64,000 bases of DNA from an uncultured Fibrobacter sp. (GTDB lineage: Bacteria > Fibrobacterota > Fibrobacteria > Fibrobacterales > Fibrobacteraceae): NCBI GenBank assembly GCA_946186895.1, contig CAMHOW010000006.1, forward strand, positions 1-64,000, written 5' to 3'. Below, one piece after another: positions 23,860 through 45,357 of the stretch. The notes below the pieces were generated by a model that was given only the letters and a program-made list of their open reading frames with translations, searched no databases and was not told the origin of the DNA. The first letter of the stretch is position 1; each line of letters opens with the position of its first letter. A program made the position numbers and the translations under genes.

Positions 23860-24894
23860 ATGAACGAAAGGCTGGAATCACTAGATGGAATAAGGGCGCT
23901 TGCTGCCATTGGCATTGTAGCTAGCCATGTGCTGGGCAATTTGCATTTGGACTTGCCCCGTAATTTTCTGTTTGACGTGTTGATTCCTTTTGGTGCCAAT
24001 TATGTCTTCTTGTTTATGATAATCAGCGCATTGTCTATGTGCTGTGGCTATTATCAAAAGTTTAAGGACCGTCAGGTTGATTTGAACACCTTCTACAAGA
24101 GACGGTATTCTAGAATATGGCCCTTTTTTGCCTTGCTCGTTTTAATTGATCTCGTTGTAAGTTTCTCTGCATCGAGCGCAATAGAGGCCTTTGCAGACCT
24201 GACTCTGCTTTTTGGCTTTTTGCCAAACCCCGATATTCAGGTTATTGGGATGGGGTGGTTTTTGGGATTGATTTTTGTCTTTTATACGATTTTCCCGTTC
24301 TTTGTCTTTATGATAAATGACAAAAAGAGGGCGTGGTTTTCTTTTGCCGTGTCCATAGCGATGTGTGTCTTTGCTTCGTCGTATTTTTCAAGGCCGGAAT
24401 TGGTTGTTCGTGCCGTTGGGAAATGGAATATCCTTTACAGCATGCCGATGTTTGTGTGCGGGGGAATCCTTTTCTTGTATCTCAAGGATTTGAAAAAACT
24501 GTCGTCAAGATGGCAAATCCCTCTGGTTTTGGCTGTACTGGCCTCTATCTTGTTTTTCTGCACGGGTCAGCAAAACAGTTTTGCCAAGCTGGCCCTGTTC
24601 GCTTTTTGGGTGGTGTTCGCTATTGCCGATAGTGGTAGGGGAGCGAAGTGGACGCTTTTGAACAACAAAATAATGGCATATATCAGCGGAATCTCTATGG
24701 AAATATATTTGTGCCATATGATGATTTTTAGAGCTGTAGAAAAGACGAACATTTTGAATGGTGTGGGTTCCGGAGTCGTGCGCTACATATTGTATTTCGT
24801 AGTCACCTTGATTGGTGCGGCCGTATTCTCCCATGTTGTGAAAATGGACCTTTTCCCTTTGCTTGCAAAGGTAAAAGAGCGCATAATAAAATGA
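23860..24894 (+). CDS. Acyltransferase-3 membrane protein (module copy A)
   Basis: The 344-residue protein has about ten membrane helices and belongs to the acyltransferase-3 family, which moves acyl groups (often acetyl) across the membrane onto sugars. The conserved start LDGIRALAAIGIVASHV carries the active His. RRYSRIWPFF is the Arg motif of the second conserved region. It overlaps the SGNH lipoprotein gene by four bases (ATGA), which in turn overlaps the beta-barrel gene by four. The three are therefore one translational unit, paralogous to the set at 43.1-45.4 kb. Confidence 0.87.
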   Translation: MNERLESLDGIRALAAIGIVASHVLGNLHLDLPRNFLFDVLIPFGANYVFLFMIISALSMCCGYYQKFKDRQVDLNTFYKRRYSRIWPFFALLVLIDLVVSFSASSAIEAFADLTLLFGFLPNPDIQVIGMGWFLGLIFVFYTIFPFFVFMINDKKRAWFSFAVSIAMCVFASSYFSRPELVVRAVGKWNILYSMPMFVCGGILFLYLKDLKKLSSRWQIPLVLAVLASILFFCTGQQNSFAKLALFAFWVVFAIADSGRGAKWTLLNNKIMAYISGISMEIYLCHMMIFRAVEKTNILNGVGSGVVRYILYFVVTLIGAAVFSHVVKMDLFPLLAKVKERIIK

Positions 24895-25490
24895 CCCGGA
24901 ATGCGTTGTTTTTGGCGTTAGGTTTTTTCTTTTGTTCCTGTTCTTTTGACGCAGAAGAACAGGAGTTGTGCTTTATAGGCGATTCAATTACATACCTGTG
25001 GGATGTTGAATATTACTTCCCCAATTACGTCATTACAAAGTATGCTGTGAGTGGCGCGGGGCTGGCTCATGTCAACAAGTGGAATGTAGAGGATTGTAGC
25101 AAAAAAACCACAGTTTTGCTTATAGGCACCAACGACATCGGTTATTGGAAATCTACAGAAAAAAATATTGAATATTTTAGATCTGAATTTACGAGTGAAT
25201 TCTTGAAAACGGCGCAGCGGATAGATGCAGAGCCGTTAATTGTGATATCTATCTTGCCAAGAAACGAGTGGGGTAAGCAAGATACTTTGGTGACCGCCAA
25301 TATTAAGGAGCAAAACAGAGAATTACGCCAGATGCTGAGTCGTGAAATGCCGAACAGTTTGTTTATTGACGTGTATGATCAGTTTATCTACAAGGGAAAT
25401 CGGATAAGGGAAGACCTGTTCAAGGACGGCTTGCATCCAAACGAAGCAGGGTACGAGATTTTAGCTAGGGAAGTGCACAAGAAACTATGA
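24891..25490 (+). CDS. SGNH-hydrolase lipoprotein (module copy A)
   Basis: The 199-residue protein has a short signal sequence with a lipobox-like FFFCSC. The SGNH/GDSL catalytic blocks are complete: GDSIT with the nucleophile Ser near residue 32, GAGL for the Gly, GTND for the Asn near 80, and DGLHPN with the Asp and His near 178. Such enzymes remove or transfer acyl groups on sugars. The partner acyltransferase just upstream makes O-acyl editing of a polysaccharide the likely job. It shares long identical stretches with the protein at 43127, for example CFIGDSITY, DPLIV(I/V)SILPRN-type and DLFKDGLHPN. Confidence 0.85.
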   Translation: MTRNALFLALGFFFCSCSFDAEEQELCFIGDSITYLWDVEYYFPNYVITKYAVSGAGLAHVNKWNVEDCSKKTTVLLIGTNDIGYWKSTEKNIEYFRSEFTSEFLKTAQRIDAEPLIVISILPRNEWGKQDTLVTANIKEQNRELRQMLSREMPNSLFIDVYDQFIYKGNRIREDLFKDGLHPNEAGYEILAREVHKKL

Positions 25491-26083
25491 AAAAAGTAAT
25501 TGCCGTATTGCTGTTTTTAATGGTGTCGGCTTATGCCGATTCCGGATTCTCTTTCTTGTTGGGTATGCGGAATAATCACTATGCCTTCATCGGTGCGGAG
25601 TATGCAAGTAAAATTGGATTGGCTGTAGAAAATTCTGTTTTTACACAGGGCGTTGAAAAGCAATATGTTCGAGTCTGCCCCTATTACCGCTGGACACTTG
25701 GGAACAGTGTGTCGGGTGTTTATAGTCTTTTCTCTGGCATGCGCTATGATCAGGAATACTACGATTTTGGCGCTCGGCTAGACCTTTTGTGGTCTCCCAG
25801 CCAGTACTTCCAGGTAGGCGGGACTTTTATGCCGTATTATGACAGTTTCTTCGAAAATACTGTTGGTTATAAAGCGTATGTCCAGAGCTTTATATTGGAA
25901 GAAGTGGGGCTCTTTGCCGGGGTGAAAAACTTGCCCGATTTTAGGGCGGTTGAACGCCGGTATATCGGGGGACTTGTGCTGAAATCGGGCCATATTATGG
26001 TAAGGCCTGAACTTTCAACCCCCATGAATGGAGATACCCATTTGATTAGGGCGTCCGTTTTCTTTATCTACAATAGCAAATAG
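25487..26083 (+). CDS. Small beta-barrel-like envelope protein (module copy A)
   Basis: The 198-residue protein has a signal peptide (about 1-17, ending AYA) and a mature part rich in alternating aromatic and polar residues (YYRWTLG, GMRYDQEYYDFGARLDLLW). This pattern is typical of an 8-stranded outer-membrane barrel, and the C-terminus ends in an aromatic strand (ASVFFIYNSK). I recognise no named family. A clear paralog lies at 43711; both share GMRN near the start, YD..YYD.G, GVKNLPD/GLKNMPD, VERR..GG and STP. ATG overlaps the SGNH stop by four bases. Role inference: an outer-membrane partner of the acyl-editing pair. Confidence 0.75.
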   Translation: MKKVIAVLLFLMVSAYADSGFSFLLGMRNNHYAFIGAEYASKIGLAVENSVFTQGVEKQYVRVCPYYRWTLGNSVSGVYSLFSGMRYDQEYYDFGARLDLLWSPSQYFQVGGTFMPYYDSFFENTVGYKAYVQSFILEEVGLFAGVKNLPDFRAVERRYIGGLVLKSGHIMVRPELSTPMNGDTHLIRASVFFIYNSK

Positions 26084-26161
26084 CTTTATTTTGGGGCGGA
26101 AAACCGCTTGTCTTCCCCTTAAAATGTTATTTTTGAGGTGAAAGTCGAAGATTGTTGTAGT

Positions 26162-26180
26162 GGCAGCGCCGGTCGCTGCC
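26162..26180 (+). promoter_or_regulatory. Hairpin upstream of the radical-SAM gene
   Basis: GGCAGCG and CGCTGCC form a perfect 7-bp stem with a 5-base loop, 21 bases before ATG 26202. No U-run follows, so it is not a standard terminator. It may stabilise the message or mark the end of the preceding operon. Confidence 0.5.
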
Positions 26181-26201
26181 ATGTAAAAAAGGAATGCTGA
26201 A

Positions 26202-27296
26202 ATGGGTTGTGCAAGTTGTAATTGCGGCTCTAGCAAGATTCAGATGCCGACAGATGTGTCGGTGATTACGACGTATCGTTGTCAGATGCGTTGTAAAATG
26301 TGCAATATTTGGAAAAATCCCACCAAGAAAAGCGAAGAAATTCAGGCGAAGGACCTGGAAATCTTGCCGCAACTCAAGTTCGCCAATGTGACAGGCGGTG
26401 AGCCGTTTATCCGCCAAGACCTAGAAGATATCGTAGAGGTCCTTTATACCAAGGCTCCCCGTATTGTGATCAGCACCAGCGGTTGGTGGGTAGACCGCGT
26501 TATCAAGCTTGCCGAACGGTTCCCGAATATAGGTATCCGTGTGAGTATCGAAGGGCTTGAAGGCACCAACAACTTCTTGCGTGGTCGCGACGACGGCTTT
26601 GAACGCGGTATGCGAACGCTTAAAACACTCCATGAAATGGGCGTAAAGGACATCGGCTTTGGCCAGACTCTTAGCAACTGGAACAGCAACGACCTGATCC
26701 CCCTCTACGAATTGGCCCTTTCGATGAATTTTGAGTTCGCTACGGCGGCCTTCCATAACAGCTACTACTTCCATAAAGAAGACAACCAGATTAGCAATAA
26801 AGAAGAACTTTGCGAAAACATCGGGAAGCTGGTGAATCGGCTGCTTAAGGAAAACCACCCCAAGTCCTGGTTCCGTGCGTTCTTCAACCTTGGCCTTATC
26901 AAGTACATCCAGGGCGGCAAGCGTATGCTGCCCTGTGAGGCTGGCTCCGTGAACTTCTTTACGGACCCTTGGGGCGAGGTCTACCCCTGCAATGGCCTCG
27001 AACCGCGTTACTGGCAAGAGAGCATGGGTAATATCCACACCGCCAAGAATTTCGAGGAGATTTGGTTCAGCGAACAGGCCCAGAAGGTGCGTGAAAAGGT
27101 CCGTACCTGCCCCAAGAACTGCTGGATGGTGGGTACCGCTGCCCCGGTGATGAAGAAATACATTGCGCACGTTGCACCTTGGGTGCTTAAGGCAAAACTC
27201 AAGAGTCTGTTCGGAAAAGAGATTGATTGTTCCTGTTTCCCGACGTTTGATGTAGGTCAAGATCCCCGCCAGGGGGACTTGAGAATTGAACGGTAA
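26202..27296 (+). CDS. Radical SAM / SPASM protein
   Basis: The 364-residue radical S-adenosylmethionine enzyme has its first [4Fe-4S] cluster on CQMRCKMC (near residues 28-35), with VTGGEPFIR as the SAM-binding GGE motif. A Cys-rich C-terminal part (CEAG, YPCNG, CPKNCW) looks like a SPASM-type auxiliary cluster domain. Additional Cys lie at the extreme N-terminus (GCASCNCGS) and near the C-terminus (CSCF). Such enzymes modify peptides or sugars by radical chemistry. Its place between the barrel gene and a glycosyltransferase suggests a sugar or surface modification, but the substrate is unknown. AAGGA lies eight bases before the ATG. Confidence 0.85.
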   Translation: MGCASCNCGSSKIQMPTDVSVITTYRCQMRCKMCNIWKNPTKKSEEIQAKDLEILPQLKFANVTGGEPFIRQDLEDIVEVLYTKAPRIVISTSGWWVDRVIKLAERFPNIGIRVSIEGLEGTNNFLRGRDDGFERGMRTLKTLHEMGVKDIGFGQTLSNWNSNDLIPLYELALSMNFEFATAAFHNSYYFHKEDNQISNKEELCENIGKLVNRLLKENHPKSWFRAFFNLGLIKYIQGGKRMLPCEAGSVNFFTDPWGEVYPCNGLEPRYWQESMGNIHTAKNFEEIWFSEQAQKVREKVRTCPKNCWMVGTAAPVMKKYIAHVAPWVLKAKLKSLFGKEIDCSCFPTFDVGQDPRQGDLRIER

Positions 27297-27306
27297 GGGG
27301 TGCGCA

Positions 27307-28485: not shown

Positions 28486-28490
28486 CGAGA

Positions 28491-29471
28491 ATGATTCAGA
28501 ACCAGCCTTTGATATCGGTGATCGTCCCTGTTTATAAGGTCGAAGCATACTTGGGCCCGTGTGTTGAATGCATTATCGCTCAAACTTATAGGAACCTGGA
28601 AATTATTCTGATCGATGACGGCTCGCCAGACCGTTGTCCTGAAATGTGCGACGCTTGGGCACAGAAAGATTCCCGTATCAAGGTGATCCACAAAGAAAAC
28701 GGTGGGGTCTCCTTAGCGCGTAATGTGGGCCTTGATGCCGCTACAGGTGATTATGTTATGTTCGTCGATTCTGACGATTTGATAGTATCGAACATAGTAG
28801 AAACCCTGTTGGACAGTTGCCAAAGAAATAATGTCTTGCTCGCCATGTGCCCCTTGCAAAATTTTACGGGCGAGGCTCCCTCTTTAGAAAAAAAGGTGGC
28901 CAAAGAAAAGGTGTTGACAGGGCGTTATATCTGCCAGTATTTTTTTGATTACTACGCCTCGGGGCCTGTGGCTAAGCTTTATGAAAAATCATTACTTGCT
29001 AAGTCAAGGTTCGTCTTGAACCGGCGGGCAGGTGAAGATGCCGCCTTCAATTACCCCATTTTTTATGGATTAGACAATGTGGCGTTTGTGTTTGCGCCCA
29101 TGTATTATTACCGGCATTATGCAGATAGCACGACAGGAACTTACAATGCCCATCTATTAGATGAGCTGGCCACCTTCGAAGAGATGCTGTCTTTTTACAA
29201 GTCCCATAATGACAAGCTTTTGTACAGGGCGATGGCAAAAGAATACTATGCAAGAATACTGGCTCACCAGCAAAAAGTGGGACGGTTCCTTGCTGAAAAC
29301 AAGGCCCTTGTAGGTGAACTTGCCACCAAAAGGCGCAATTTTATGAACCTTGATTTGGGAGTGGCACAAAGAATTTTCTATTCCGTCGCAAATGCTTTTC
29401 CAAGGCTGTTCTTGAAAATCTTTTTTACTGAACGGGATTTTCGGCAAAATCGAATAAGGGGACAATTATGA
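28491..29471 (+). CDS. Family 2 glycosyltransferase
   Basis: A GT-A enzyme of about 326 residues. The N-terminal domain shows the usual order: ISVIVPVYKVEAYL, IILIDDGSPDRC, NGGVSLARNVGLDAATGDYV and MFVDSDD, the metal-binding DxD. Acceptor specificity lies in the C-terminal half and cannot be read from sequence. ATG 28491 is chosen. GTG 28482 is equally possible and would give a 4-base overlap with the upstream stop. The stop overlaps the next gene by four bases (ATGA). Confidence 0.9.
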   Translation: MIQNQPLISVIVPVYKVEAYLGPCVECIIAQTYRNLEIILIDDGSPDRCPEMCDAWAQKDSRIKVIHKENGGVSLARNVGLDAATGDYVMFVDSDDLIVSNIVETLLDSCQRNNVLLAMCPLQNFTGEAPSLEKKVAKEKVLTGRYICQYFFDYYASGPVAKLYEKSLLAKSRFVLNRRAGEDAAFNYPIFYGLDNVAFVFAPMYYYRHYADSTTGTYNAHLLDELATFEEMLSFYKSHNDKLLYRAMAKEYYARILAHQQKVGRFLAENKALVGELATKRRNFMNLDLGVAQRIFYSVANAFPRLFLKIFFTERDFRQNRIRGQL

Positions 29472-30772
29472 CCTATCTCATATTGGGTTCTTGTGCTCTT
29501 TTGATATTTGTCTTTTTTAGGACGCACGATGCAAATGTGAAGATTGCTTCGTTACTTGGCTCTATTGTTTTGTTCTCTGGGGGCTTTTATTTTATTTCGC
29601 AACCTTGGATTGCCCCGATGCATATTCCGCTCTATTGTAGCTTGCTGTCGTTTGCTCTGTTTTACAATGAAGATCGGCGTGCTATCATGAGGGAATATCC
29701 GATAAAAAAGTGGACGCTGTTTCTTTTTCTTTCTTTTTTAGCATCTGGTTTTTTTGGTGATGAAGGCCAGATTTATGGGTGCTATACGGCAACCAGATTC
29801 TTTTTAGATTCGTATGGTTTTTTCCTTGTTGCCTTTGTTCTTGGCTCTAAATGCGAATATGAGGAATTGGCTAATCTTTTGTTTTGGCCGGTGATATTCT
29901 ATTGCGCCTTTGGCTTTTTAGAGGCGGCAATGGGCTACAACTACATCTATTCGTGGATGATAGACTCTTTCCCGCTGTACGAAGGGTATTTGGGAAAGAT
30001 GTCGTCGGAAATGAATTATTTTGATACGTGGCGCATTCGTACCAGCATAACCACCATACACCCAACGACATTGGGCGCGTTACTTACGGTACTTTTCATT
30101 TTCTATTTACCTATGGTAAAGAGAAAGGAAGCTAAGTTTTTATGCCTATTTGGGATTCTTTGCGTGATGATTTTCTTGTCGGGTTCCCGTACGGCATGGG
30201 TGTGTTCGGCACTTTATGGTCTGTATTATTTTATAAAAGACAGGAAATTGATGGTGAAAATGTGCTTTTATGCTTTGTGCGTAGGGGCGGTCTTTTATGT
30301 TGGTAACGAAATTTTGTCTTCATTTACTGCCGAGGATAGGGGCAGCTCAATTGATATGAGGCAAAGAAACCTTCTGGTGTGTTATTTGGCGTTTATTGAT
30401 AAGCCTTTAACAGGGCACGGATTTAACTACATAGGCACGTTGATTGATCGCAATGACAGCGGATATGCTGTTGATGGGGCTATGGAGTCCGTAGTATATA
30501 ACACGATGGTGGAACAGGGAATTTTGGGGATGGCTACATACCTGTTGTTTGTTTTTGCGAATCTGTTCGCCTTCAGAAAGTTGAGAAAGAGGGATGAAGA
30601 TGTTGCCGACATTGGAGCTGGTATAACGGTGATGATCACGTTGTTCTCGCTCATGTCAGGGACGTTAGGAAACTTGCACTCTATGGCCTACATTATGCAA
30701 GGAACATGCCTTGGTATTCTGTGCTACAAAAAGGATCCAGAAGAAGGTGAAAATGAAAAAGATTCTGTTTGA
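29468..30772 (+). CDS. O-antigen polymerase/ligase-like membrane protein (Wzy-like)
   Basis: The 434-residue protein has about ten to twelve hydrophobic segments and a large periplasmic loop (about 285-340). The pattern LSGSRTAWVCSALYGLYYF followed by a loop with DMRQRNLLVCYLAF and KPLTGHGFNYIGT is typical of the Wzy/WaaL O-antigen polymerase-ligase superfamily. In a Wzx/Wzy system it would join repeat units on the periplasmic side, and the flippase at 35499 supports this. A ligase role cannot be excluded. It is AT-rich and overlaps genes on both sides. Confidence 0.8.
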   Translation: MTYLILGSCALLIFVFFRTHDANVKIASLLGSIVLFSGGFYFISQPWIAPMHIPLYCSLLSFALFYNEDRRAIMREYPIKKWTLFLFLSFLASGFFGDEGQIYGCYTATRFFLDSYGFFLVAFVLGSKCEYEELANLLFWPVIFYCAFGFLEAAMGYNYIYSWMIDSFPLYEGYLGKMSSEMNYFDTWRIRTSITTIHPTTLGALLTVLFIFYLPMVKRKEAKFLCLFGILCVMIFLSGSRTAWVCSALYGLYYFIKDRKLMVKMCFYALCVGAVFYVGNEILSSFTAEDRGSSIDMRQRNLLVCYLAFIDKPLTGHGFNYIGTLIDRNDSGYAVDGAMESVVYNTMVEQGILGMATYLLFVFANLFAFRKLRKRDEDVADIGAGITVMITLFSLMSGTLGNLHSMAYIMQGTCLGILCYKKDPEEGENEKDSV

Positions 30773-31898: not shown

Positions 31899-32297
31899 AT
31901 GAAAAAGATTCTGACAGTTGGCGTGTACGATTATCTGCATATTGGCCATGTAAACTTGTTCCGCCGGGCTAAGGAACTGGGGGACTACTTGATTGTCGCT
32001 GTTCAGGATTCAAACTTTATCTTAAAATACAAGCCCAACACAAAGATTTTATACAATACGGATGAACGAATGTATATGGTTCGTTCTATTAGGTATGTGG
32101 ATGAGGTGGTGGTTTACACCGACGTAGACCGTATTGTTAAAGAAGTCGATTTTGACGTTTTTGTAACAGGCCCTGACCAAGTCCACGAAGGCTTTCAGCG
32201 AGCGATGCAGTGGTGCAGGGATAACGGAAAAGAGACCGTTGTTTTGCCTAGAACAGAGGGCATTTCTTCGTCCCAACTGAAAGGCGAAACGAAGTAA
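31899..32297 (+). CDS. Cytidylyltransferase, glycerol-3-phosphate type (TagD-like)
   Basis: The 132-residue nucleotidyltransferase is the size of TagD. It transfers CMP from CTP to a phosphorylated alcohol to give CDP-glycerol or a related CDP-polyol. The HxGH motif is YDYLHIGHVNLF near residue 15, and the RTEGISSS motif near residue 120 supplies the other nucleotide-binding part. A LicD protein and a CDP-glycerol glycerophosphotransferase follow immediately, so CDP-glycerol is the best guess for the product. Phosphocholine or phosphoethanolamine are alternatives. Confidence 0.87.
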   Translation: MKKILTVGVYDYLHIGHVNLFRRAKELGDYLIVAVQDSNFILKYKPNTKILYNTDERMYMVRSIRYVDEVVVYTDVDRIVKEVDFDVFVTGPDQVHEGFQRAMQWCRDNGKETVVLPRTEGISSSQLKGETK

Positions 32298-33101
32298 TCA
32301 TTTTTTCCAGTACGGCACAAAAGTGTGGTGATTCACCCTTTTTTCTACCGGGGGCAGCTCCATATACTTGCCGTATGCCGCTTTTAAGTAGTCGTCATAC
32401 CCCTGCATGCCCTTAAATACGCTGTTTTCAAAGGGCATGTCAATAACCTCTTGCATGGACTGTCGTAGAAAAGGATTCTTGACCCTCCAACCCTGAATGC
32501 ATTCGAATACAAATGGTGACTCAGTGTTGTTGTACCTTTGGGAGTACTTGTTGATAATCTCGGCTAATTTTCTAAGACTTACGGGGAACAATAAAAGCTT
32601 AGCGGCGATGTGGAATAGGTTTTTTAAGAGGGGCCGTTCTTTATCGAATTTCAGGAATTTTACATAATAGGCTTTATGGATGATTTTTCGCTTTAGATTG
32701 TAGCGTTTCCATTGGCTTTTGTCTTCTGGAACTCTGTCTATAGGATAGACATCAATGTTGACTCCTATGGGCTTGTTTACAACGGCGGTTTCCTTTACAA
32801 ACGTTCTTTCGTCGTAAGCCTTGGCATAGGCGTATTCCCACGAAGGGTCTCTACTTAAGGAGGCGATTTTGATATTGTCGAGCTGCTCGGGGAACTGCGA
32901 TATTAATTTTTCGTAATCTTCTCTTAGAAGGTATATGTCAATGTCGTCGTCCCATGGAATGTAGCCCTTGTGCCTAACTGCACCCAGTAGTGTCCCGCAG
33001 GCCATGCTATACCGAATACCATTCTTTTCGCAAAAATCGTGAATGACCTGAAGAATGTTGATTTGCACAGACCTCATTTCATCGAAAGACATCGGGGTCA
33101 T
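32298..33101 (-). CDS. LicD-family phosphotransferase
   Basis: LicD proteins transfer phosphocholine or similar phospho-alcohols from a CDP donor onto glycans. The 267-residue protein starts at ATG 33101 (GGAG upstream) and shows the family core: NGIRYSMACGTLLGAVRHKG and IPWDDDIDIYL, with the acidic metal-binding residues, then VNIDVYPIDRVPED. A longer upstream frame to 33203 lacks a ribosome-binding site. Its stop abuts that of the cytidylyltransferase on the other strand, so the two converge. Together with that gene and the next, it suggests phospho-alcohol decoration of the polysaccharide. Confidence 0.87.
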   Translation of the reverse strand: MTPMSFDEMRSVQINILQVIHDFCEKNGIRYSMACGTLLGAVRHKGYIPWDDDIDIYLLREDYEKLISQFPEQLDNIKIASLSRDPSWEYAYAKAYDERTFVKETAVVNKPIGVNIDVYPIDRVPEDKSQWKRYNLKRKIIHKAYYVKFLKFDKERPLLKNLFHIAAKLLLFPVSLRKLAEIINKYSQRYNNTESPFVFECIQGWRVKNPFLRQSMQEVIDMPFENSVFKGMQGYDDYLKAAYGKYMELPPVEKRVNHHTFVPYWKK

Positions 33102-33251
33102 TTTTGTTCTCCATAGAATTACGTAATCAAAAATGTAGTAAAAATGCAAAATATAGGCTGTCAAAACAGTCCGTATGGCGTTCAGGGGGATATCACTTAA
33201 CAAGAAAAAGGTATTTTTTAACTAGACAGTTAATGAATATGGTTTTTTAAC

Positions 33252-35498: not shown

Positions 35499-36941
35499 AT
35501 GTCGTCGGTCGCCTCAAAATCAATTTATGGCATCATCTGGAGTGCAATAGAGCGCTTTTCACTGCAAGGCGTTAATTTCGTAATTGGAATTATCTTAGCG
35601 CGTCTGCTGTTCCCTTCTGATTTTGGAATGATCGGCATGCTCTCTATTTTCTTGAGCGTGTCGCAAACGTTCATTGATTGTGGCTTTTCAAATGCGCTTA
35701 TCCGTCAAAAAGAAACATCTGCGGAGGATTATGGTACCGCATTTATCATTAATTTTGCAATAAGCGTAGTGGCGTTTGTCGTTTTGTTTTTCTCTGCTCC
35801 GTATGTGGCGGCATTTTACAACATGCCGGACTTGCAGCCTGTAATGAGGGTGGTCTCTACGACATTGATCATAAATGCCCTATATACGGTACACAAGGTA
35901 AAGCTTACAAGAAATGTTGATTTCAAAACGCAGGCAAAGGCCTCGCTGTGTGCGGCGCTGCTTTCGGGTGTTTTAGGCATTGCCCTTGCGTATAATGGTT
36001 TCGGTGTCTGGAGCCTGGTATACCAAACCGTCTGCAATTCTGTCTTGAATCTTATTTTGATGGTTGTCTTGTTAAAATGGTTCCCTAAGCCCTTGTTTGC
36101 AAAAAAATCATTTCATTCGCTGTTTGGCTTTGGCTCTAAAATTTTAATAGCAAGTATCATATCGTCCATTTACTCAAATCTTTACAATATTGTTATCGGA
36201 AAATGCTTTTCTGCCAGTAGCCTAGGGTTTTATTCACGGGCCGATCAACTGGGCAAGTTCCCCTCTAATAATGTTGCCGGAATTTTGTCGAGGGTGACAT
36301 ATCCGATTTTATCGCAACTGCAGGACGAGCCTGAAAGGCTAAAGGGGATCTATATAAAGTATTTGCAGATGTCCTGCTTTATCGTGTTCCCCTTAATGAT
36401 GGGATTGGCGGCACTCGCGAAACCCCTAGTTGTGTTGATGCTTGGTGAAAAATGGCTCCCGTCAGTCATATTGCTGCAAATATTATGCTTCGGCATGATG
36501 CTTGACCCCGTTTGTAATATCAACTTAAATTTGCTTTATGTAAAAGGCCGCTCGGATTTAGTCTTAAAACTTGAAATCATCAAGAAAACCATTGCGGTAG
36601 CCATACTTCTTGTTTCCCTCCCCTTCGGGCTTGAAGGTCTTTGCATTGGGCGCTCTAGCTATGGTGTCATTGCCACAGTATTGAATATGGTCTATACAAG
36701 AAAATTCCTAAATCTCTCTATTTGGGGCCAGTTGAAAATAATTATGCCCTCCTTATCGCTGTCTTTGCTGATGGCGGCTTGTTCATATGGGATAACGTTA
36801 CTCCAGTTTAACAATGGGATACAGCTTGTACTTGGGGTCATTGTTGGAATGTTGCTTTATATTGGGGTTGCGTTCATGCTGAAGATGGACTCTATCAACT
36901 ATTTGTTAGAAATGGTAAAAACTAAAGTTTTCAAGAAATAG
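35499..36941 (+). CDS. Wzx/WzxC-type polysaccharide flippase
   Basis: The 480-residue member of the MOP flippase family has about twelve to fourteen membrane helices. It moves lipid-linked repeat units from the cytoplasmic to the periplasmic face. Landmarks are the N-terminal GIIWSAIERFSLQGVNFVIG, RLLFPSDFGMIGML and, in the middle, FYSRADQLGKFPSNNVAGIL, all typical of the WzxC-like branch. Together with the Wzy-like and Wzc-like proteins it defines a Wzx/Wzy-type pathway. Confidence 0.92.
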   Translation: MSSVASKSIYGIIWSAIERFSLQGVNFVIGIILARLLFPSDFGMIGMLSIFLSVSQTFIDCGFSNALIRQKETSAEDYGTAFIINFAISVVAFVVLFFSAPYVAAFYNMPDLQPVMRVVSTTLIINALYTVHKVKLTRNVDFKTQAKASLCAALLSGVLGIALAYNGFGVWSLVYQTVCNSVLNLILMVVLLKWFPKPLFAKKSFHSLFGFGSKILIASIISSIYSNLYNIVIGKCFSASSLGFYSRADQLGKFPSNNVAGILSRVTYPILSQLQDEPERLKGIYIKYLQMSCFIVFPLMMGLAALAKPLVVLMLGEKWLPSVILLQILCFGMMLDPVCNINLNLLYVKGRSDLVLKLEIIKKTIAVAILLVSLPFGLEGLCIGRSSYGVIATVLNMVYTRKFLNLSIWGQLKIIMPSLSLSLLMAACSYGITLLQFNNGIQLVLGVIVGMLLYIGVAFMLKMDSINYLLEMVKTKVFKK

Positions 36942-38098: not shown

Positions 38099-38111
38099 GG
38101 CCGGCAAGTTT

Positions 38112-39344
38112 ATGGATTACTTAAGAACAAAAGTAAAAAACGAATGCTTTGGCTGCGAAGCGTGTGTTCAAGCTTGCCCGAAGAAGGCTCTCGCCATGCA
38201 GGAAGATTCGGAAGGGTTCCGGTACCCGCAAGTTAATGAAGACTTGTGCATACACTGCGACCTGTGCCACCGAGTCTGCCCGGCTAATAATATGCCGGAA
38301 TGTTCTCATGATCAAAAATACGCATATGGTGGTTATCACAAAGACATCGAGATCCGCCGAACGAGTACGTCTGGCGGCGCGTTTACCGCAATAGCCCAGG
38401 CCTTTTGTGATGAAAACTACGTTGTTTATGGCGCGGCGTCTGAGGGCCTGGACGTGTTCCATAAGGGCATTGTTGACATCCGTGATTTACAGACGCTCTG
38501 CAAGTCGAAATATTCCCAGAGTCGTATTGGTGATACATTCCGGGATGTGAAGTCGTGCTTAAAGGCCGGGAAAAAAGTACTGTTTGCAGGAACCCCATGC
38601 CAGGTTGCAGGATTAAAGTCTTTTTTGCAGAGTGCCGATATTTCAAATCTGCTCCTTGTCGAGGTTGTCTGCGAGGGAGTCCCCAGCCCACTTTATGTCC
38701 GTAAGCTAGATGACCATGTAGAACGTAAGTATGGCGCGCGTATCCAAACATTGGATTATCGGAGCAAGGGATTCAAATCCACACCATCTTCATTCAAGTG
38801 GGATTTCCAGAGGATGCGCCTGGATCTGAAAAACGGCAAGATTCTGGATAAGGATCGCTGGTTTAATCCCTATTGGTCAATTTGGCTCAAGCATCTGATG
38901 AGCCGTCCGTCGTGCTATCAGTGCCCATTTGCCAATACGGAACGCCAAGCAGATATCACGCTGGGCGATCTCTGGGGCGTGCACCTCTATTGTCCTGAAT
39001 TGTACGGTAAAAATGGCGGAGCGTCGCTGATCGTATGTAATACGGAAAAGGGCCGAAAGTTTTGGGCTAAAGCCGCGGAATATTTTATCGGGCATGAACT
39101 TGATTTTAATACCGCGTTGAAGTATCAGGCCCCCTTGCGTAAACACATTGACGACAACCCGGATCGTGAAGCCTGTATGCGCGACCTGATGGATCCGGAA
39201 ACGAAGTACACGGAAATTTGCCGAAAATGGGCTAGTCCGCCAACGGCAAAGCTTCTGTTTCAGAAATATATCTGGGGCAATCGTCAAAAAGTCTTTATTT
39301 GGAACCTAAAACATAATGACAAAGAAAGGAATAAAAATGCTTAA
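38112..39344 (+). CDS. F420-hydrogenase beta-like iron-sulfur protein
   Basis: The 410-residue protein has two N-terminal [4Fe-4S] motifs of ferredoxin type, [12 protein letters not shown] near residue 13 and [12 protein letters not shown] near 47. The F420 hydrogenase/dehydrogenase beta-subunit domains follow ([13 protein letters not shown] near 165, CEGVPSP near 190, CYQCPFA near 270, DITLGDLWG). Members in polysaccharide loci are thought to serve as reductases for a sugar or a pyruvyl-type modification, but biochemical evidence is thin. It starts at ATG 38112 rather than 38079, and the next gene overlaps it by eight bases. It probably acts with the pyruvyltransferase. Confidence 0.87.
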
Positions 39345-40410
39345 TTTCACTGTTGGGCCTGTCATGTGCAGCGACGAGGTTTGCGCCGTAGGTGGCGAGC
39401 AGGTTCCGTATTTCAGAACTCCTGATTTTTCAAAGCTTATGCTTGAAAATGAGCAGTTTATGCTGAAGTTTGCAAAAGCACCGAAGGGCTCGAGAGTCGC
39501 CTTCATGACGAATTCTTCCACGGGCTCAATGGAAGCGTCTGTAATGAACTGTCTTACTGCTTCTGATAAGGTGCTGGTCATTAACGGCGGTAGCTTCGGT
39601 CAGCGTTTCGAGGAGCTTTGCGAGATCCATGAAATCCCTCACGATGTCCTGCATCTGAACCCCGGACAGAAGCTGACAAGGGACCATTTGTACGAGTATG
39701 ACGGCAAGGGGTATACCGGACTGCTTGTCAACATTGACGAAACATCGACCGGCGTGCTTTACGATTCTGAAATGCTCGGTGAGTTTTGCAAGAAGAACCG
39801 GATGTTCTATATCTGTGACTGCGTTTCCGCTTTTCTTGCAGATCCATTTGATATGGAACACTGCGGTGCAGATGTCATGATTACAGGGTCGCAGAAGGTG
39901 CTTGCGTGCCCTCCTGGCGTGTCGATGATAGTTCTTGGACCTCGGGCGGTTGAACGTGTTATGAACGCAAAGGTGAAATCCATGTATTTTGATCTTGCCG
40001 ACGTGCTGAAAAACATGGATCGTGGTCAGACTCCTTTCACACCTGCTGTTGGCATACTCCGCCAGATCAACAAGAGGCTGAAGGAGATCGAAGCGGCTGG
40101 CGGTGCAGATGCGGAAATAGCCCGGGTTGCCGCTCAGGCACAGGATTTCCGCAACAAGATCAAGGAATTGCCGTTTGAGTTTGTTTCTGAATCACCGGCA
40201 AATGGTGTAACAGCTGTTCATCCTGTCAACGCGGACGCTTACGATATTTTCATGGAGCTCCAGGACCACTATAATATTTGGATTTGCCCGAATGGAGGCG
40301 ATATGAAAAGCACCGTTTTCAGGGTCGGACATATCGGGTATCTATCTCATGAAGACAATACCACATTGATAGAAGCATTGAAAGATATGCAGAGCAAAGG
40401 AAAAATCTAG
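39337..40410 (+). CDS. Class V aminotransferase (AEP/alanine-glyoxylate type)
   Basis: The 357-residue PLP enzyme of fold type I, class V, looks like alanine-glyoxylate or 2-aminoethylphosphonate transaminases. Landmarks are [10 protein letters not shown] at the start, [15 protein letters not shown] near residue 60, [13 protein letters not shown] near 135, [14 protein letters not shown] near 165, and the PLP Lys in [13 protein letters not shown] near 190. ATG 39337 has AAAGGA seven bases upstream. It is paired with the cytidylyltransferase fusion that follows and may supply an aminated substituent. The exact amine donor and acceptor are unknown. 2-Aminoethylphosphonate is one candidate, because such groups are known on Fibrobacter surface glycans as far as I recall. 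Confidence 0.83.
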
Positions 40411-40434
40411 GCGTCAATAGGAAGGCTGGTCATA

Positions 40435-41775
40435 ATGACAAAGGTAATCACATACGGAACATATGACATGCTTCATTACGGCCATGTCAAGTTGCTGGAG
40501 CGAGCCAAGGCTTTAGGTGACTATCTGATTGTTGGCGTAACCTCTGATGACTATGACAAAACAAGAGGCAAGATCAACAACCAGCAGTCCCTTATGGAAA
40601 GGATTGCCGCTGTCAAGGCTACCGGAATTGCCGACGAGATTATTGTCGAAGAATACGATGGTCAAAAAATAGACGATATCCGCCGGCTCGGCGTTGATAT
40701 TTTCACAGTCGGTTCCGATTGGACGGGAACGTTTGATTACCTTAACGAATATTGCAAGGTCGTGTATCTTCCAAGAACAGAAGGCGTTTCGAGCACTGAA
40801 GTCAGGGCCGAAAAGAGAAAGCTGAGAATTGGCCTTGTTGGCACGGCCGTATTCCGGACAAAATTCGTAAAAGAGGCACGCTATGTGAATGGCGTAGAAA
40901 TCGCAGGCATATGCGCATCGAAGCCCAACGAGGAAACCGAACTCAAGGACTTGTTCTATACAGATGATTTCGATCAGCTGCTAAATTGCGTCGATGCGGT
41001 TTATATTATTTCAAAGCCGGAGAACCATTATTCAGACTGTAAAAAGGCCCTTCTTGCCGGCAAGCATGTCCTTTGCGAGTCTCCAATAGCCTACTCCATA
41101 GAACAGTGTAGGGAATTGTACAAGCTTGCGAAAGAACGCGACCTTATCCTTATGGATGCCATCAAAACGGCATATTCAACTGCATATGAACGCCTGATTT
41201 TGATGGCCAAGGGCGGAAAGATTGGAAACGTGATATCCGTTGATTCGGTTTGTACAAGCCTTCGCGATGGAATTTCCATTGAAGGAACCGACCTTTCCAT
41301 GAAGTGGAACAGTATGTGCGGCTGGGCTCCCGCGGCCATGCTTCCCATTTTCCAGATGTTTGGAACGGAATATACGGATAAAACCTTCTATACAAAATTT
41401 CAGAGCAAAAAGGACAATATCGACGCCTTTACAAAGATAAATTTTGTATATCCCTCCGGAGTTGCTTCTGTCAAAGTTGCCAAAGGTGCTAAATCAGAAG
41501 GCGAACTGATCATTACAGGAACAAAGGGATACATCTATGTTCCCGCCCCTTGGTGGAAAACGGACTATTTCGAAGTGCGGTACGAGAATCCCGAAGAAAA
41601 CAAAAGGTTCTTTTACCAGCTGGATGGCGAAGGAATCCGGTATGAAATCGTTGCATTCTCCAAGGCTATCGAATCAAAGAGAAATATGAGCTATATCTCT
41701 GAAAAGATTTCAGAAGCCATATCTGGAGTGATTGACGATTTTAACAATCGTAAAAACATGATCGAAATACAGTAA
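40435..41775 (+). CDS. Cytidylyltransferase fused to Gfo/Idh/MocA-type oxidoreductase
   Basis: Residues 1-130 are a TagD-like cytidylyltransferase (HYGH in TYDMLHYGHVKLL, RTEGVSST near 118). Residues about 134-446 form a Gfo/Idh/MocA oxidoreductase with the NAD motif GLVGTAVFRTKF near 137 and CESPIAYSIEQ near 218; EKP, the usual family triplet with the catalytic Lys, is replaced by ESP. The architecture recalls CDP-ribitol synthases, where a reductase makes the alcohol and a cytidylyltransferase activates it. The product could therefore be a CDP-linked polyol or amino-alcohol made with the aminotransferase upstream. The fusion is full length with no break. AAGG-type ribosome-binding bases precede ATG 40435. 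Confidence 0.85.
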   Translation: MTKVITYGTYDMLHYGHVKLLERAKALGDYLIVGVTSDDYDKTRGKINNQQSLMERIAAVKATGIADEIIVEEYDGQKIDDIRRLGVDIFTVGSDWTGTFDYLNEYCKVVYLPRTEGVSSTEVRAEKRKLRIGLVGTAVFRTKFVKEARYVNGVEIAGICASKPNEETELKDLFYTDDFDQLLNCVDAVYIISKPENHYSDCKKALLAGKHVLCESPIAYSIEQCRELYKLAKERDLILMDAIKTAYSTAYERLILMAKGGKIGNVISVDSVCTSLRDGISIEGTDLSMKWNSMCGWAPAAMLPIFQMFGTEYTDKTFYTKFQSKKDNIDAFTKINFVYPSGVASVKVAKGAKSEGELIITGTKGYIYVPAPWWKTDYFEVRYENPEENKRFFYQLDGEGIRYEIVAFSKAIESKRNMSYISEKISEAISGVIDDFNNRKNMIEIQ

Positions 41776-41801
41776 TTCCTCAAAAGCTCGGAAATGTAGG
41801 G

Positions 41802-43040
41802 CTACTTAATGCCCTTTAGGCTTTTGTCGATCCATTCAATTCTTTGGTTTATCCAGCTGTTTAACGAGTCTATAGCTTCGTCGTAGCTGTTGTACGCTTC
41901 TTTATAGGTCCAGTTTTCGGTGTTTTGAAGTACCGGCCAACGCTTGAATTCGTTTTTTGTAGCGGGCGATATTTCTTTTGCGTATTTGGTAATGGAGTCG
42001 GGGAAGGTCGTTAAAAAATCATAATGCTTGTACCAGTAGTTTTTTGCCTCTTGCCAATGGGCTTCGTTCTTGAAAATAAGCCCGTTCCAGCCGCTTCCAC
42101 GGATATACCAGTTGTTGGGTTGTGTCAGAGAGCCTTCTTGCCAATTTCCGTAGGCAACGTCAAAATCCCAGATAGGGCCGAACTGGATAAGGCTGTCTTG
42201 CTGCCAGGTTAGGTAGATGCTCCGCTTGAAAGCCCCGTCCATATTTTTTGAAAGTTCCTGAATCCAGTAGAAACGAAGGTAACTTTCAAGATCAAGATAA
42301 TCATGGATTGTTTTATCTGGGGCTTCACCGTTCAAGAAATTTTCAAAATCGCTCAGTACATTCTTGATTTGTGTAATGTCGTTGTAGTTAGGCTCTTTGG
42401 GGGATACAATGCAGAAGGTTGTTCCTTTTTCTGTTATAACAAAATGCTCGTCCCCATATTCTGTAGGGCCTCTTTCCAATAAAAAAGAGCCTTCTGTTTT
42501 GGGAATGTTGACACGGTGATACCCGACTTTGATGGTCTCGGTAAGGAGATAAACGCCTTGGTATTGCCGATTGAGGTATAATTCTACAAAGGTTCCCCTA
42601 GGGGAGTATTTTGCCCCGAGCCACCTGGCGAGTTTGTATGTTATAAAATTTTTCAGAAGAGTCTTGTCGGCGGAATTTGCAATGAGGGCCCAATTTTTGT
42701 CTTTGGGCATTCCGAACATTTCCTGCTTTTTTTGAAATTCTATGGAGTAGCTCGGTTTTGGCATCCCTGTAAAGCTGGAGTTTCCACGGCCCCTGATTGT
42801 GAGGTCAAGAATCTCACTTTCAGGGGACTTTTCCCCATATATTTGCATCTTTGCTGGCAACTCGGTTTTTCGGTCTCGAATTTGGGCAAAGTCCTCGGTC
42901 TCGATGACCATCCTCGGCAAGTTGGCGTAGGGGTATTCCGAATCGTCGATAGTCAAGTAATCTGGGCTGTCGTCGGAATTTGTCCAGACGCAGGAACAGA
43001 TTAGAAGGGCGATGAACGTGGCGACGAGTCGGATGAACAT
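41802..43040 (-). CDS. CotH-kinase lipoprotein
   Basis: The 412-residue lipoprotein (lipobox LLICSC, Cys near 17) is made mostly of one CotH domain. Conserved parts are LTIRGRGNSSF near residue 90, GVYLLTETIKVGYHR near 165, FLLERGP and the metal motif IWDFDVAYGNW near 285. It is shorter than the other CotH protein at 17248 and lacks its lamin-tail and chitobiase-like modules. CotH proteins are atypical ATP-dependent kinases in spore-formers; on a bacterial outer surface the phosphate donor and target are unknown. It converges with the fusion gene and is divergent from the SGNH lipoprotein. Confidence 0.87.
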   Translation of the reverse strand: MFIRLVATFIALLICSCVWTNSDDSPDYLTIDDSEYPYANLPRMVIETEDFAQIRDRKTELPAKMQIYGEKSPESEILDLTIRGRGNSSFTGMPKPSYSIEFQKKQEMFGMPKDKNWALIANSADKTLLKNFITYKLARWLGAKYSPRGTFVELYLNRQYQGVYLLTETIKVGYHRVNIPKTEGSFLLERGPTEYGDEHFVITEKGTTFCIVSPKEPNYNDITQIKNVLSDFENFLNGEAPDKTIHDYLDLESYLRFYWIQELSKNMDGAFKRSIYLTWQQDSLIQFGPIWDFDVAYGNWQEGSLTQPNNWYIRGSGWNGLIFKNEAHWQEAKNYWYKHYDFLTTFPDSITKYAKEISPATKNEFKRWPVLQNTENWTYKEAYNSYDEAIDSLNSWINQRIEWIDKSLKGIK

Positions 43041-43126
43041 GCATCAAATTTAAGAATTTGAACGGAGTGGCTTGGGAATGGTGCATGGCGAAGAATGTTT
43101 TTTTGCTAGATTTCGTGTAGATTGCG

Positions 43127-43714
43127 ATGATGAAAAAGTGGCTGATTTTATTCGGGGTCTTTTTTTTATGGGCGTGTGATTTTGAAGAAAGTGACACGCG
43201 TGTTTGTTTTATAGGCGATTCGATTACCTATCAATGGGACCTTGAGTATTTTTTCCCGCAATATACTCCCTTGAAACATGCAAAAAATGGTGCAAGGATT
43301 CGAGATATCGACGGTTGGAACCTGGAGGAATGTAGGGGGATTCCATCGGTCATATTGATGGGCACCAATAACCATGCTGAATTTTTTGATGAAAAACGAA
43401 GGGATTCGTTCTTGCAGGATTTCTTTACCCGAATCGAGAGGATCCAGGCGGATCCGTTAATTGTGGTTTCGATTCTTCCGCGAAATTACCAGCGACAGCA
43501 AAAACCGCAAACGAACAAGCTTATTCACGATGTCAACGTGCTTGTAGAAAATGGGCTAGATTCCTTGAAAGGGCGCTTTGTGTATTTAGATGTGTTCCCG
43601 CTGTTTGCCCAAAATGAATTTGAAGCCAGAATGGACCTGTTTAAGGATGGCTTGCACCCGAATGTGGCCGGCCAAGAGATTTTGACGTCAGAAGTTCAGA
43701 AGGTATTAAAATGA
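43127..43714 (+). CDS. SGNH-hydrolase lipoprotein (module copy B)
   Basis: The 195-residue paralog of the protein at 24891 has a lipobox FFLWAC with Cys near 17. The catalytic set is GDSIT near residue 30, GTNN near 80 and DGLHPN near 174; the third block reads GTNN instead of GTND but keeps the essential Asn. About every second residue matches copy A over the whole length, including CFIGDSITY and VSILPRN. ATG 43127 and 43130 are both possible, and a -10-like TAGATT lies at 43118-43123, so the message could be nearly leaderless. The next gene overlaps by four bases. Confidence 0.85.
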   Translation: MMKKWLILFGVFFLWACDFEESDTRVCFIGDSITYQWDLEYFFPQYTPLKHAKNGARIRDIDGWNLEECRGIPSVILMGTNNHAEFFDEKRRDSFLQDFFTRIERIQADPLIVVSILPRNYQRQQKPQTNKLIHDVNVLVENGLDSLKGRFVYLDVFPLFAQNEFEARMDLFKDGLHPNVAGQEILTSEVQKVLK

Positions 43715-44307
43715 AAATAAGAATCGTTGCCTTTTTACTGGCTTCGGCTACGCTACTTTTCGCCAATAGCCAGTTTTTTATGGGAATGCGTAATCAGAGG
43801 TTCCTGTTTGCCGGTATTCAGTACGGGGCGTACGGGGTTGCCTATGAACAGTCTCTGTTCAATCAAGACCCGGACCAGCAGCATGGAAGCTTGGGCCTGT
43901 TTGCGGAATATACGTTGCCGTTGTCGGTGACGCTTTGGTATGCCGTGTATGGCGGCATGCAATATGATGCAGATTATTATGACTATGGTGGAGAAGTTGG
44001 CTTGGTCTGGGATGCCTTTGATTATTTTGGGCTGAAGGCTCGCTACCGGCCTTTTTACGATAGCGATCTTGGAACCCATTACGGATACCTGGTGCAGTTG
44101 CAGACATTCCCATTTAAGGAAGTCGGATTCTATGCGGGGCTTAAGAATATGCCAGATTACCGCGATGTGGAGCGCCGCGTTTTTGGAGGAATGCTTTTTG
44201 ATGTAGGCCGCCTAGAGGTCTACCCCGAAATTTCGACACCGGTTCACGGCAGTTTTGAATGGACCCGCGTGCAACTTAATTTTATCTATCATTGCGATTT
44301 TCATTAA
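43711..44307 (+). CDS. Small beta-barrel-like envelope protein (module copy B)
   Basis: The 198-residue protein is the same length as its paralog at 25487. It has a signal peptide (about 1-18, ending LFA) and aromatic strand-like segments such as FFMGMRNQRFLFAG, YDADYYDYGGEVGLVW and GLKNMPDYRDVERRVFGGML. Strand periodicity suggests an outer-membrane beta-barrel of about eight strands. Its ATG overlaps the SGNH stop by four bases, as in copy A. The acyltransferase follows here after nine bases instead of preceding. Confidence 0.75.
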   Translation: MKIRIVAFLLASATLLFANSQFFMGMRNQRFLFAGIQYGAYGVAYEQSLFNQDPDQQHGSLGLFAEYTLPLSVTLWYAVYGGMQYDADYYDYGGEVGLVWDAFDYFGLKARYRPFYDSDLGTHYGYLVQLQTFPFKEVGFYAGLKNMPDYRDVERRVFGGMLFDVGRLEVYPEISTPVHGSFEWTRVQLNFIYHCDFH

Positions 44308-44316
44308 GGGTAAAGA

Positions 44317-45357
44317 ATGAAAGTAGACCTGATATTGACTTTTTTACTGATGGCGCTGTTGTTTGCGGCCATTATGTGGAAAAGTACTCCCAAGGATGGC
44401 CCGTTTTCGTTTGACAAGAACTTTACGGGAGTGCTCAAGGGGGTGAGCGCCATCATTGTCGTTTTTGTGCATGTTCCGGAACTTTACCATAATGCCGTCC
44501 AGAGAATGGTGATGAGCTTTGGCTTTGTGGCCGTAACGGTGTTCTTTATGATATCGGCTTACGGCATGCAGTTTTCGGCAAATCGTTCCGGAGAAAAATA
44601 CCTGTCGCATTTTTGGCGAAACCGCCTTGCAAGCCTGTTGATTCCTTGTTTGTTGGTGAATCTTTTTTGTGTCTTGTTTAATGTTTGTACTGGGCGGGAC
44701 TTTTCGCCGCTAAAAGCCCTTGTAAATATGCCTGGCTACGTGTGGGTCTTGTTGCAGTACTGCATTCTCTTTTTTGTTGTAATGTTCTGCCAGCTGAAGC
44801 TCAAGATAAAGCCTTCCATATGCTACGTTATCATGGTCGCTGCGGTTGTGGGGTCAAGCCTGTTTTTGTACCTATCTTCGCCAGATGCGAACAATTCCGC
44901 TGAAATGGGATGGTGTTACGAACGCATGGGACTTGTCTGGGGCCTGTTGCTGTTTTTGTTCTTTGCAAAAATTGCCGATTTCATGAATTCCCGCTGGCTT
45001 GTGAAAACGCTCGCCCTGGGATTTTTTTCGCTGACTTTGGGAGTGGCCTATTTGATGACCAAAACCGTCTGGTTTTACGGGGAATACCTTCTGAAAATTG
45101 TGCTTGGCCTTGTGATTATCGCCTTTGTGCTGTTCTTGTCGCGAAAGAGATCTTTGGGGAATGCGGTCATCAACCATTTGGGAGCGATATCCTACGAGAT
45201 TTACTTGTCTCACGAGTTGATGATGCGGGTTGTTGCGTATTTGTTACCGAGCGTTTCGAGTGGCGTGTTCCTTGTCTTGACCATGACGGCTACAATCGCC
45301 TTTAGTACGGTTGTCCATATGGTGTCTTCAAGACTAGTGTCGCGGGTGCGCGTATAG
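44317..45357 (+). CDS. Acyltransferase-3-like membrane protein (module copy B)
   Basis: The 346-residue protein has about ten membrane helices. After a first helix the conserved motif reads LKGVSAIIVVFVHV with the catalytic-type His; HFWRNRLASLLIPC is the Arg-containing region. It is closer to the protein at 34458 (also with the extra first helix and KG..I..FF-H pattern) than to module copy A at 23860. So the same three gene types recur but the acyltransferase partner differs in subfamily. It ends four bases from the convergent acyltransferase gene at 45361. Confidence 0.84.
   Translation: MKVDLILTFLLMALLFAAIMWKSTPKDGPFSFDKNFTGVLKGVSAIIVVFVHVPELYHNAVQRMVMSFGFVAVTVFFMISAYGMQFSANRSGEKYLSHFWRNRLASLLIPCLLVNLFCVLFNVCTGRDFSPLKALVNMPGYVWVLLQYCILFFVVMFCQLKLKIKPSICYVIMVAAVVGSSLFLYLSSPDANNSAEMGWCYERMGLVWGLLLFLFFAKIADFMNSRWLVKTLALGFFSLTLGVAYLMTKTVWFYGEYLLKIVLGLVIIAFVLFLSRKRSLGNAVINHLGAISYEIYLSHELMMRVVAYLLPSVSSGVFLVLTMTATIAFSTVVHMVSSRLVSRVRV

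Follow-up and report, generated by a model that had tools for sequence, protein, structure and literature searches.

A gene-coupled SGNH lipoprotein and small outer-membrane barrel in Fibrobacter polysaccharide loci, with a possible role in acyl editing

A 64,000-nucleotide stretch of an uncultured Fibrobacter sp. genome (contig CAMHOW010000006.1, assembly GCA_946186895.1; hereafter the window) encodes, at two places in one surface polysaccharide cluster, an SGNH lipoprotein and a small outer-membrane barrel protein from overlapping genes, a pair that we call the dyad. Each dyad lies beside a gene for an AT3 acyltransferase, all on the forward strand. The first set (23860-26083) begins with the AT3 gene (PF01757; 23860..24894), which overlaps the gene for the SGNH lipoprotein by 4 bases (PF13472; 24891..25490; lipid-carrying Cys 15 residues N-terminal of the catalytic Ser), and ends with the gene for the barrel protein (25487..26083), which falls outside known families and carries GMRN, YYD, YDS and PDFRAVERR motifs. 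In the second set (43127-45357) the SGNH gene (PF13472; 43127..43714) and the barrel gene (43711..44307) come first, and the AT3 gene (PF01757; 44317..45357) follows 9 bases 3' of the barrel gene. In both sets the stop codon of the SGNH gene and the start codon of the barrel gene share the bases ATGA (25487..25490 and 43711..43714). An earlier note on this DNA had placed both sets here and had seen the 4-base SGNH/barrel overlaps. The motifs it listed, CFIGDSITY, SILPRN and DLFKDGLHPN for the SGNH proteins and GMRN, YYD, VERR and STP for the barrels, are all in both copies. Structures were predicted for both proteins of dyad 2, and by homology to this modelled copy the dyad 1 barrel should likewise have 12 strands.

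Pfam assigns both SGNH proteins to PF13472 above cut-off (E 1.3e-15 and 5.4e-11) and the AT3 proteins of both sets to PF01757 (125.5 and 78.8 bits, against a gathering score of 31), and neither window barrel has a Pfam or NCBIfam match at E ≤ 1. AT3 and SGNH are separate genes in the window, and no single chain there joins the two. Aligned between sets, the SGNH proteins are identical at 79 of 199 positions (40%, E 1e-49) and the barrels at 75 of 197 (38%, E 7e-48), which, judged from these alignments, is far above chance. The two AT3 proteins can be aligned over 73 columns only (34%, E 4e-7) and are, on the same basis, only remotely related within one large family rather than close copies. 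With AT3s this dissimilar, what recurs is the SGNH/barrel dyad and not a block of three genes. The repeated three-gene module of the earlier note thus holds for a dyad that recurs next to an AT3, but not for the AT3 itself.

Does the dyad behave as a unit beyond the window? Among 33 dyads, 26 from the window's phylum and seven from Bacteroidales, the SGNH stop and barrel start overlap in every case, as ATGA in 32 and as GTGA in one. Trees and residue counts are based on 32 of these dyads, leaving aside L005, in which the SGNH gene is cut by a contig end. As for the alignments, A3 and A4 do not include L024 (a near-duplicate of L023), A4 also lacks L005, and A5 and A6 consist of 17 and 18 chosen rows. 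Maximum-likelihood trees of the SGNH and barrel proteins recover the same main groups, with the Bacteroidales apart, and mostly the same small clades, and disagree on L012, L010 and L007, in some deep and some shallow places; the trees were midpoint-rooted for drawing only and carry a long-branch warning, for L016 above all. Pairwise distances of the two proteins are correlated (Pearson 0.93, Spearman 0.75). Given the overlap kept throughout and the broad agreement of the protein trees, the dyad appears to pass down as one unit. Recent duplication of a three-gene block in the window is rejected, as the AT3s are too unlike and dyads 1 and 2 fall in different clades. Both of these clades also occur together in G061, G133 and G110 (the second dyad of G110 is L005, placed by its gene neighbourhood and not in the trees). 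Recent transfer between Fibrobacter and Bacteroidales is without support, the two groups forming separate clades in both trees.

Within the window's phylum (167 genomes searched), 26 barrels were found in 21 genomes belonging to two genera of one family. A profile search returned the same 26, together with a 27-residue piece in G070 that resembles a decayed barrel copy. An SGNH gene lies directly upstream of all 26. Searched from the other side, with an SGNH profile, the same genomes gave 30 matches in 25 genomes, 27 of them strong (E 5e-52 or better) and three weaker (L076-L078); 26 of the 27 strong matches are in dyads. At L076, from another family of the phylum, the SGNH gene overlaps by 4 bases a gene for a 226-residue barrel-like protein (815-2244), beside glycosyltransferase-like genes. 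Over 37 columns this protein matches the barrel profile at E 0.0013, though at only 18% probability (HMMER E 0.09), and L076 is possibly a distant dyad member. The gene after SGNH in L077 has no match to the barrel profile, and that in L078 is of a different kind.

A scan of named genomes with SGNH alignment A5 found 249 relatives, and among the best 80 of these a barrel follows the SGNH gene in six. Four (L084-L087) are Fibrobacter or Fibrobacteraceae on contigs already covered by the phylum search; L088 (Muribaculaceae) and L089 (Bacteroidales) were new. The record titles of two of the six give rumen or cecum, and two others carry RUG names, which we take to mark rumen assemblies; the named dyad loci are assemblies of metagenomes. 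The barrel occurs in at least 6 of 393 genomes of the order to which L088 belongs, L088's own included, and in at least 1 of 395 genomes across the wider Bacteroidota, namely that of L088, both counts being lower bounds with at most 8 candidates scored per genome. With L089 this makes seven Bacteroidales dyads, all seven with the SGNH partner. The dyad 1 barrel had no tblastn match among 72,556 plasmid records, which leaves plasmid-borne spread without support, and a scan of the genome collection with one barrel as query found no relative. As far as sampled, the dyad is patchy and confined to one Fibrobacter family and some Bacteroidales. Barrel homologs in many unrelated contexts, which would have spoken against a dedicated partnership, were not seen in these searches.

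The acyltransferase is a looser companion. An AT3 or MBOAT domain lies within 600 bases of at least 22 of the 26 dyads of the phylum (domain positions in 23 genomes), and in 12 of those 22 the adjoining acyltransferase is the sole one listed within 10 kb; these counts are lower bounds, and some contigs end less than 10 kb from the dyad. A further dyad, in G124, adjoins a fragment of an MBOAT gene (PF03062 E 7.7e-4, below cut-off). The 22 dyads form seven groups, each with different acyltransferases and orientations. In the window, a further AT3 gene (PF01757; 45361..46398, reverse strand) converges on the AT3 of the second set, and its relatives adjoin related dyads in L003, L004 and L005.

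Five of the seven Bacteroidales dyads (L088, L089, L171, L173 and L174) are the last two genes of a run MBOAT, AlgJ-like, SGNH, barrel. All five MBOAT proteins exceed the PF03062 cut-off and end in FIYFQF; those of the related loci L086 and L185 end in FLYANF. These seven ends fit the C-terminal Tyr hexapeptide described in PMC12148441. AlgJ-like is our label, given for position, size, a common GSS motif and a D..H pair; Pfam gives matches below cut-off only, to PF13472 (L088, L171, L089), PF19040 (L173) and the ALGX family PF16822 (L174), and nothing relevant for the AlgJ-like proteins of L086 and L185. The seven MBOAT loci thus look as if they already hold a full writer of acyl groups, to which the dyad would be an addition. 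The expectation that the barrel always keeps company with both an SGNH and an acyltransferase is borne out for the SGNH, in 33 of 33 dyads, but the acyltransferase is only usual. It is a frequent but exchangeable neighbour, represented by several AT3 types or by MBOAT with an AlgJ-like protein. Polysaccharide loci are rich in acyltransferases, so a chance rate computed over whole genomes would overstate the adjacency; a stronger argument is that direct contact recurs in different groups, on different strands and in two phyla.

What might the SGNH lipoprotein do? The model of the dyad 2 protein (predicted local distance difference test score, pLDDT, 89.7) is nearest in fold to a sialate O-acetylesterase (Z 20.0, root-mean-square deviation (rmsd) 2.5, 168 aligned residues), with PatB at Z 17.0 (rmsd 2.5, 168 aligned). 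The active-site residues Ser32, Asn81 (block III), Asp174 and His177 (both block V) are present in all 32 proteins, and the block II residue Gly55 in 31, with Ala in one. Replacement of this Gly by Ser or Asn is a mark of PatB and of Streptococcus pneumoniae OatA (PMC12148441, section 7), and no such replacement was found in the 32 proteins. As the catalytic residues and the block II Gly are kept, unlike in PatB and one OatA, the dyad protein looks like an esterase rather than a transferase. A lipobox Cys is present in 32 of 32 and precedes the catalytic Ser by 14 to 16 residues, which would put the active site near the membrane anchor. An acidic stretch follows the Cys in all 32 (2 to 5 Asp or Glu at +2 to +9, mean 3.66 of 8), compared with a mean of 1.8 in a control set of 14 lipoprotein-like frames, drawn by a crude pattern from the window and other retrieved loci and with at least one false member. 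The stretch is reminiscent of the acidic signal, at +2 to +6, by which Bacteroidetes export lipoproteins to the surface, yet does not match the exact motif of PMC5080379.

The barrel protein, about 180 residues without its signal, is predicted (dyad 2 copy, pLDDT 89.3) to form a signal helix (2-17) and twelve strands, the first starting at residue 20. Foldseek places KdgM first (E 6.5e-6), and VIA-align ties KdgM (Z 17.4, rmsd 2.9, 161 aligned) with the autotransporter BrkA (Z 17.4), followed by NanC (Z 14.7), EstA (PDB 3kvn; Z 13.6, rmsd 3.4, 170 aligned), LpxR (Z 13.2) and OMPLA (Z 10.4). Pfam found no porin family, and nothing above cut-off, in the 17 of 33 barrels scanned; OMP_b-brl appeared below cut-off in two of these, L088 (E 0.00093) and L010 (E 0.0049). 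NCBIfam gave none on six barrels, and the best match among PDB sequences was unrelated (E 0.075).

Conservation is concentrated on one face of the barrel. With its orientation assumed, the extracellular third of the strands averages 3.02 bits, the periplasmic third 1.94 and the periplasmic turns 1.71, and of the 15 polar residues whose weighted conservation exceeds 85%, 13 are at the presumed extracellular end. Judged by side-chain pattern, R60 (28 of 32; Ser in the window's second barrel) and D91, D117, E154, R156 and R186 (32 of 32) face the lumen, while Q57 and R151 (32 of 32) are in outer loops. Because the outer loops of such barrels are usually variable, conservation at the outer mouth suggests a specific ligand or partner at that place. 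The Arg/Asp/Glu ring in the modelled lumen may also be read as the sign of a channel for acidic oligosaccharides, though it is suggestive only. A role as lipid A or phospholipid deacylase was considered and rejected. The 12-stranded enzymatic barrels LpxR and OMPLA have a conserved catalytic His, whereas no His is found among the invariant or near-invariant columns of the dyad barrels (A3, 25 barrels; A6, 18 barrels), and both enzymes are weaker fold matches.

The window locus is a surface polysaccharide cluster, biosynthetic and not catabolic. It encodes a UDP-glucose/GDP-mannose dehydrogenase (20068..21438), a polymerase of the Wzy_C/O-antigen ligase type (29468..30772), a polysaccharide flippase (Polysacc_synt_3; 35499..36941) and a Wzc-type chain-length kinase (Wzz, GNVR and AAA_31; 46449..48542), all on the forward strand, along with several glycosyltransferases, a pyruvyl transferase, LicD and a CDP-glycerol glycerophosphotransferase. 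The UDP-sugar dehydrogenase, the pyruvyl transferase and the phosphate-adding genes suggest an acidic polymer. Aminotransferase class V, cytidylyltransferase, LicD and CDP-glycerol glycerophosphotransferase genes at 39316-40410 and 31899-34448 suggest phosphate-linked decorations on it, and at 40435-41775 a cytidylyltransferase domain and a GFO_IDH_MocA oxidoreductase domain are fused in one gene.

Other genes recur near dyads. CotH-kinase-like genes adjoin many of them, in the window at 17248-19971 and 41802-43040 (both PF08757) and, by eye, in L003, L004, L006, L015, L017, L020 and L179 (three in tandem in the last), and their product is a possible further partner. A radical SAM/SPASM gene (26202-27296) comes after dyad 1, and by eye one also comes after the related dyads L008, L009, L011 and L023-L025. 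L173, from Bacteroidales, has a similar one (3326-4345), accompanied by a glycosyltransferase gene, also similar, and by one resembling a UDP-sugar dehydrogenase gene. In L173 and L174 the barrel gene overlaps at its end with a gene for a polysaccharide deacetylase (9002-9862 and 196-1065; PF01522 E 5.6e-12 and 2.3e-11, respectively). Upstream of SGNH in L021, L026 and L182 (8880-9746) is a gene of the endonuclease/exonuclease/phosphatase family, with a 4-base overlap (PF03372 E 3.8e-13 in L182).

So, what is the dyad for? We hold it about evenly balanced whether it is a two-protein outer-membrane device by which the cell edits the acyl groups of its own surface polysaccharide. An AT3 alone, or an MBOAT with its AlgJ-like partner, would write O-acyl groups onto the glycan at the periplasmic side of the inner membrane. 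The SGNH lipoprotein, a putative esterase whose active site would sit about 15 residues from its lipid anchor, may then remove some of these groups at the outer membrane, where it most likely resides. The 12-stranded barrel, with its Arg/Asp/Glu ring at the outer mouth, probably binds or guides the acidic glycan to the enzyme, or else docks the enzyme at the surface; the two proteins would form a physical complex. The logic would be that of the writer and eraser in PatA/PatB/Ape1, with the eraser shifted to the outer membrane. The earlier note had proposed a link from periplasmic acyl editing to the outer membrane, and this is also our best reading. In the barrel, however, it is the presumed extracellular mouth that is conserved and not the periplasmic side, so the dyad may act at the cell surface and not in the periplasm. 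A bolder version is possible though doubtful: the lipid-anchored esterase would be fixed to the outer opening of its dedicated barrel, and the charged ring would grip acidic polysaccharide that is emerging or folding back. The acylation pattern would then be set at the surface after export, by one inherited unit that serves both AT3 and MBOAT writers in two phyla.

Several observations weigh against the editing device. Not every relative is paired: L075 (in G094), a strong SGNH relative, has no barrel behind it, and the weaker relatives L076-L078 have no convincing barrel-family member in that place. Not every dyad has a writer at hand: no acyltransferase is listed near those of G150, G127 (close to a contig end) and G092, and G150 and G092 lie, by eye, outside polysaccharide loci. 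Among the Bacteroidales, L172 has no adjacent acyltransferase, with an AT3 about 2 kb away, and L175 has, by eye, only an MBOAT remnant upstream, where Pfam gives just PF19040 below cut-off. The wealth of acyltransferases in polysaccharide loci also makes adjacency alone weaker than it looks. The barrel orientation follows the usual rule for outer-membrane proteins, both chain ends periplasmic, and is an assumption. As to the enzyme, the block II Gly criterion rests on few known transferases, and the catalytic domain of OatA is also near in fold (Z 18.2, rmsd 2.0, 143 aligned), which keeps a transferase compatible with the model.

In a different assignment, which the OatA fold match favours, a stand-alone AT3 would have the SGNH lipoprotein as its terminal O-acyltransferase, and the barrel would tie acyl transfer to export of the polymer, much as AlgX, AlgK and AlgE do for alginate. 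The window AT3s are without an SGNH domain, and the other adjacent AT3s, with open frames of 337-391 residues, are too short for a fusion. PMC9558356 raises the question of partners for stand-alone AT3s and notes that an AT3-only protein could work with a separate SGNH protein, PatB, and in AlgEKX an SGNH transferase is combined with a lipoprotein and a porin (PMC9734138, section 11). We nevertheless regard this assignment as unlikely. The block II Gly is kept where PatB and S. pneumoniae OatA have lost it, the MBOAT loci keep the dyad even with an AlgJ-like partner in place, the acyltransferase sits in the inner membrane while the dyad is most likely in the outer, and stand-alone AT3s can probably work alone (PMC9558356).

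Two further explanations turn on the barrel. If it were chiefly a pore for poly- or oligosaccharides, like KdgM or NanC, the SGNH protein might trim acyl groups to let the glycan pass. The oligogalacturonate porin KdgM heads the fold matches, Arg residues at 60, 156 and 186 face the lumen with Asp and Glu, and the locus genes suggest an acidic polymer. But the barrels scanned match no Pfam porin family, a 12-stranded pore would be narrow for polymer export and the ring might close it, and the window locus makes polysaccharide rather than degrading it, all of which leaves this quite unlikely. Nor do we find much to favour a barrel that carries the lipoprotein to the surface or holds it there. 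EstA combines an SGNH esterase and a 12-stranded barrel in one chain, with a linker helix before strand 1, and the dyad would be its split counterpart. The fold match to EstA, the acidic stretch after the SGNH lipid Cys, recalling the Bacteroidetes signal, and conservation on the presumed extracellular face agree with such a role; in the one barrel modelled, however, strand 1 begins directly after the signal helix and leaves no room for an autotransporter linker helix, and Bacteroidales export other surface lipoproteins without a dedicated barrel. We therefore judge this very unlikely.

The proposed editing dyad has parallels among characterized systems, each of them partial. Its nearest logic is that of the PatA/PatB/Ape1 operon, in which a membrane acyltransferase and an SGNH transferase O-acetylate peptidoglycan and a separate SGNH enzyme de-O-acetylates it (PMC12148441); an acyltransferase with a separate SGNH eraser would be common to both, whereas the dyad's SGNH is a lipoprotein, gene-overlapped with a dedicated barrel, mostly in polysaccharide loci and with either AT3 or MBOAT as writer. 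In architecture it is nearest to AlgE-AlgK-AlgX, which joins an SGNH enzyme, a lipoprotein and an outer-membrane porin for acyl modification of the exopolysaccharide alginate (PMC9734138). Unlike that system, the window sets have no separate TPR lipoprotein, the SGNH being itself the lipoprotein, and the barrel is 12-stranded and of about 180 residues. EstA offers the nearest pairing of domains, SGNH with a 12-stranded barrel, but the dyad is two genes in 33 of 33 cases, its modelled barrel lacks the linker helix and its enzyme is lipid-anchored. KdgM and NanC share the small 12-stranded barrel and charged lumen, and differ in having no sequence family match to the dyad barrel, no conserved outer-mouth Arg/Asp/Glu ring and no obligate SGNH partner. 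Stand-alone AT3s and AT3-SGNH fusions (OafA/OafB, OatA) likewise bring AT3 and SGNH activity to surface glycans (PMC9558356), whereas the dyad has its SGNH as a lipoprotein in its own right, paired with a barrel, and occurs beside MBOAT systems too. By the tests made, the dyad is none of these known systems.

In the literature searched, by titles and abstract openings, we found no description of a small barrel dedicated to an SGNH lipoprotein. The AT3 review PMC9558356 names as open questions both the need of stand-alone AT3 proteins for partners and the contribution that SGNH proteins make to them. The barrel, with no Pfam family above cut-off, never seen without an SGNH in the searches made and mostly found by an acyltransferase, offers a genetic handle on the acylation and editing of surface glycans. 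Fibrobacter is a rumen fibre degrader whose coat matters in attachment and in contact with phages. If the proposed editing role is true, one acyl-editing step would be located at the Fibrobacter outer membrane.

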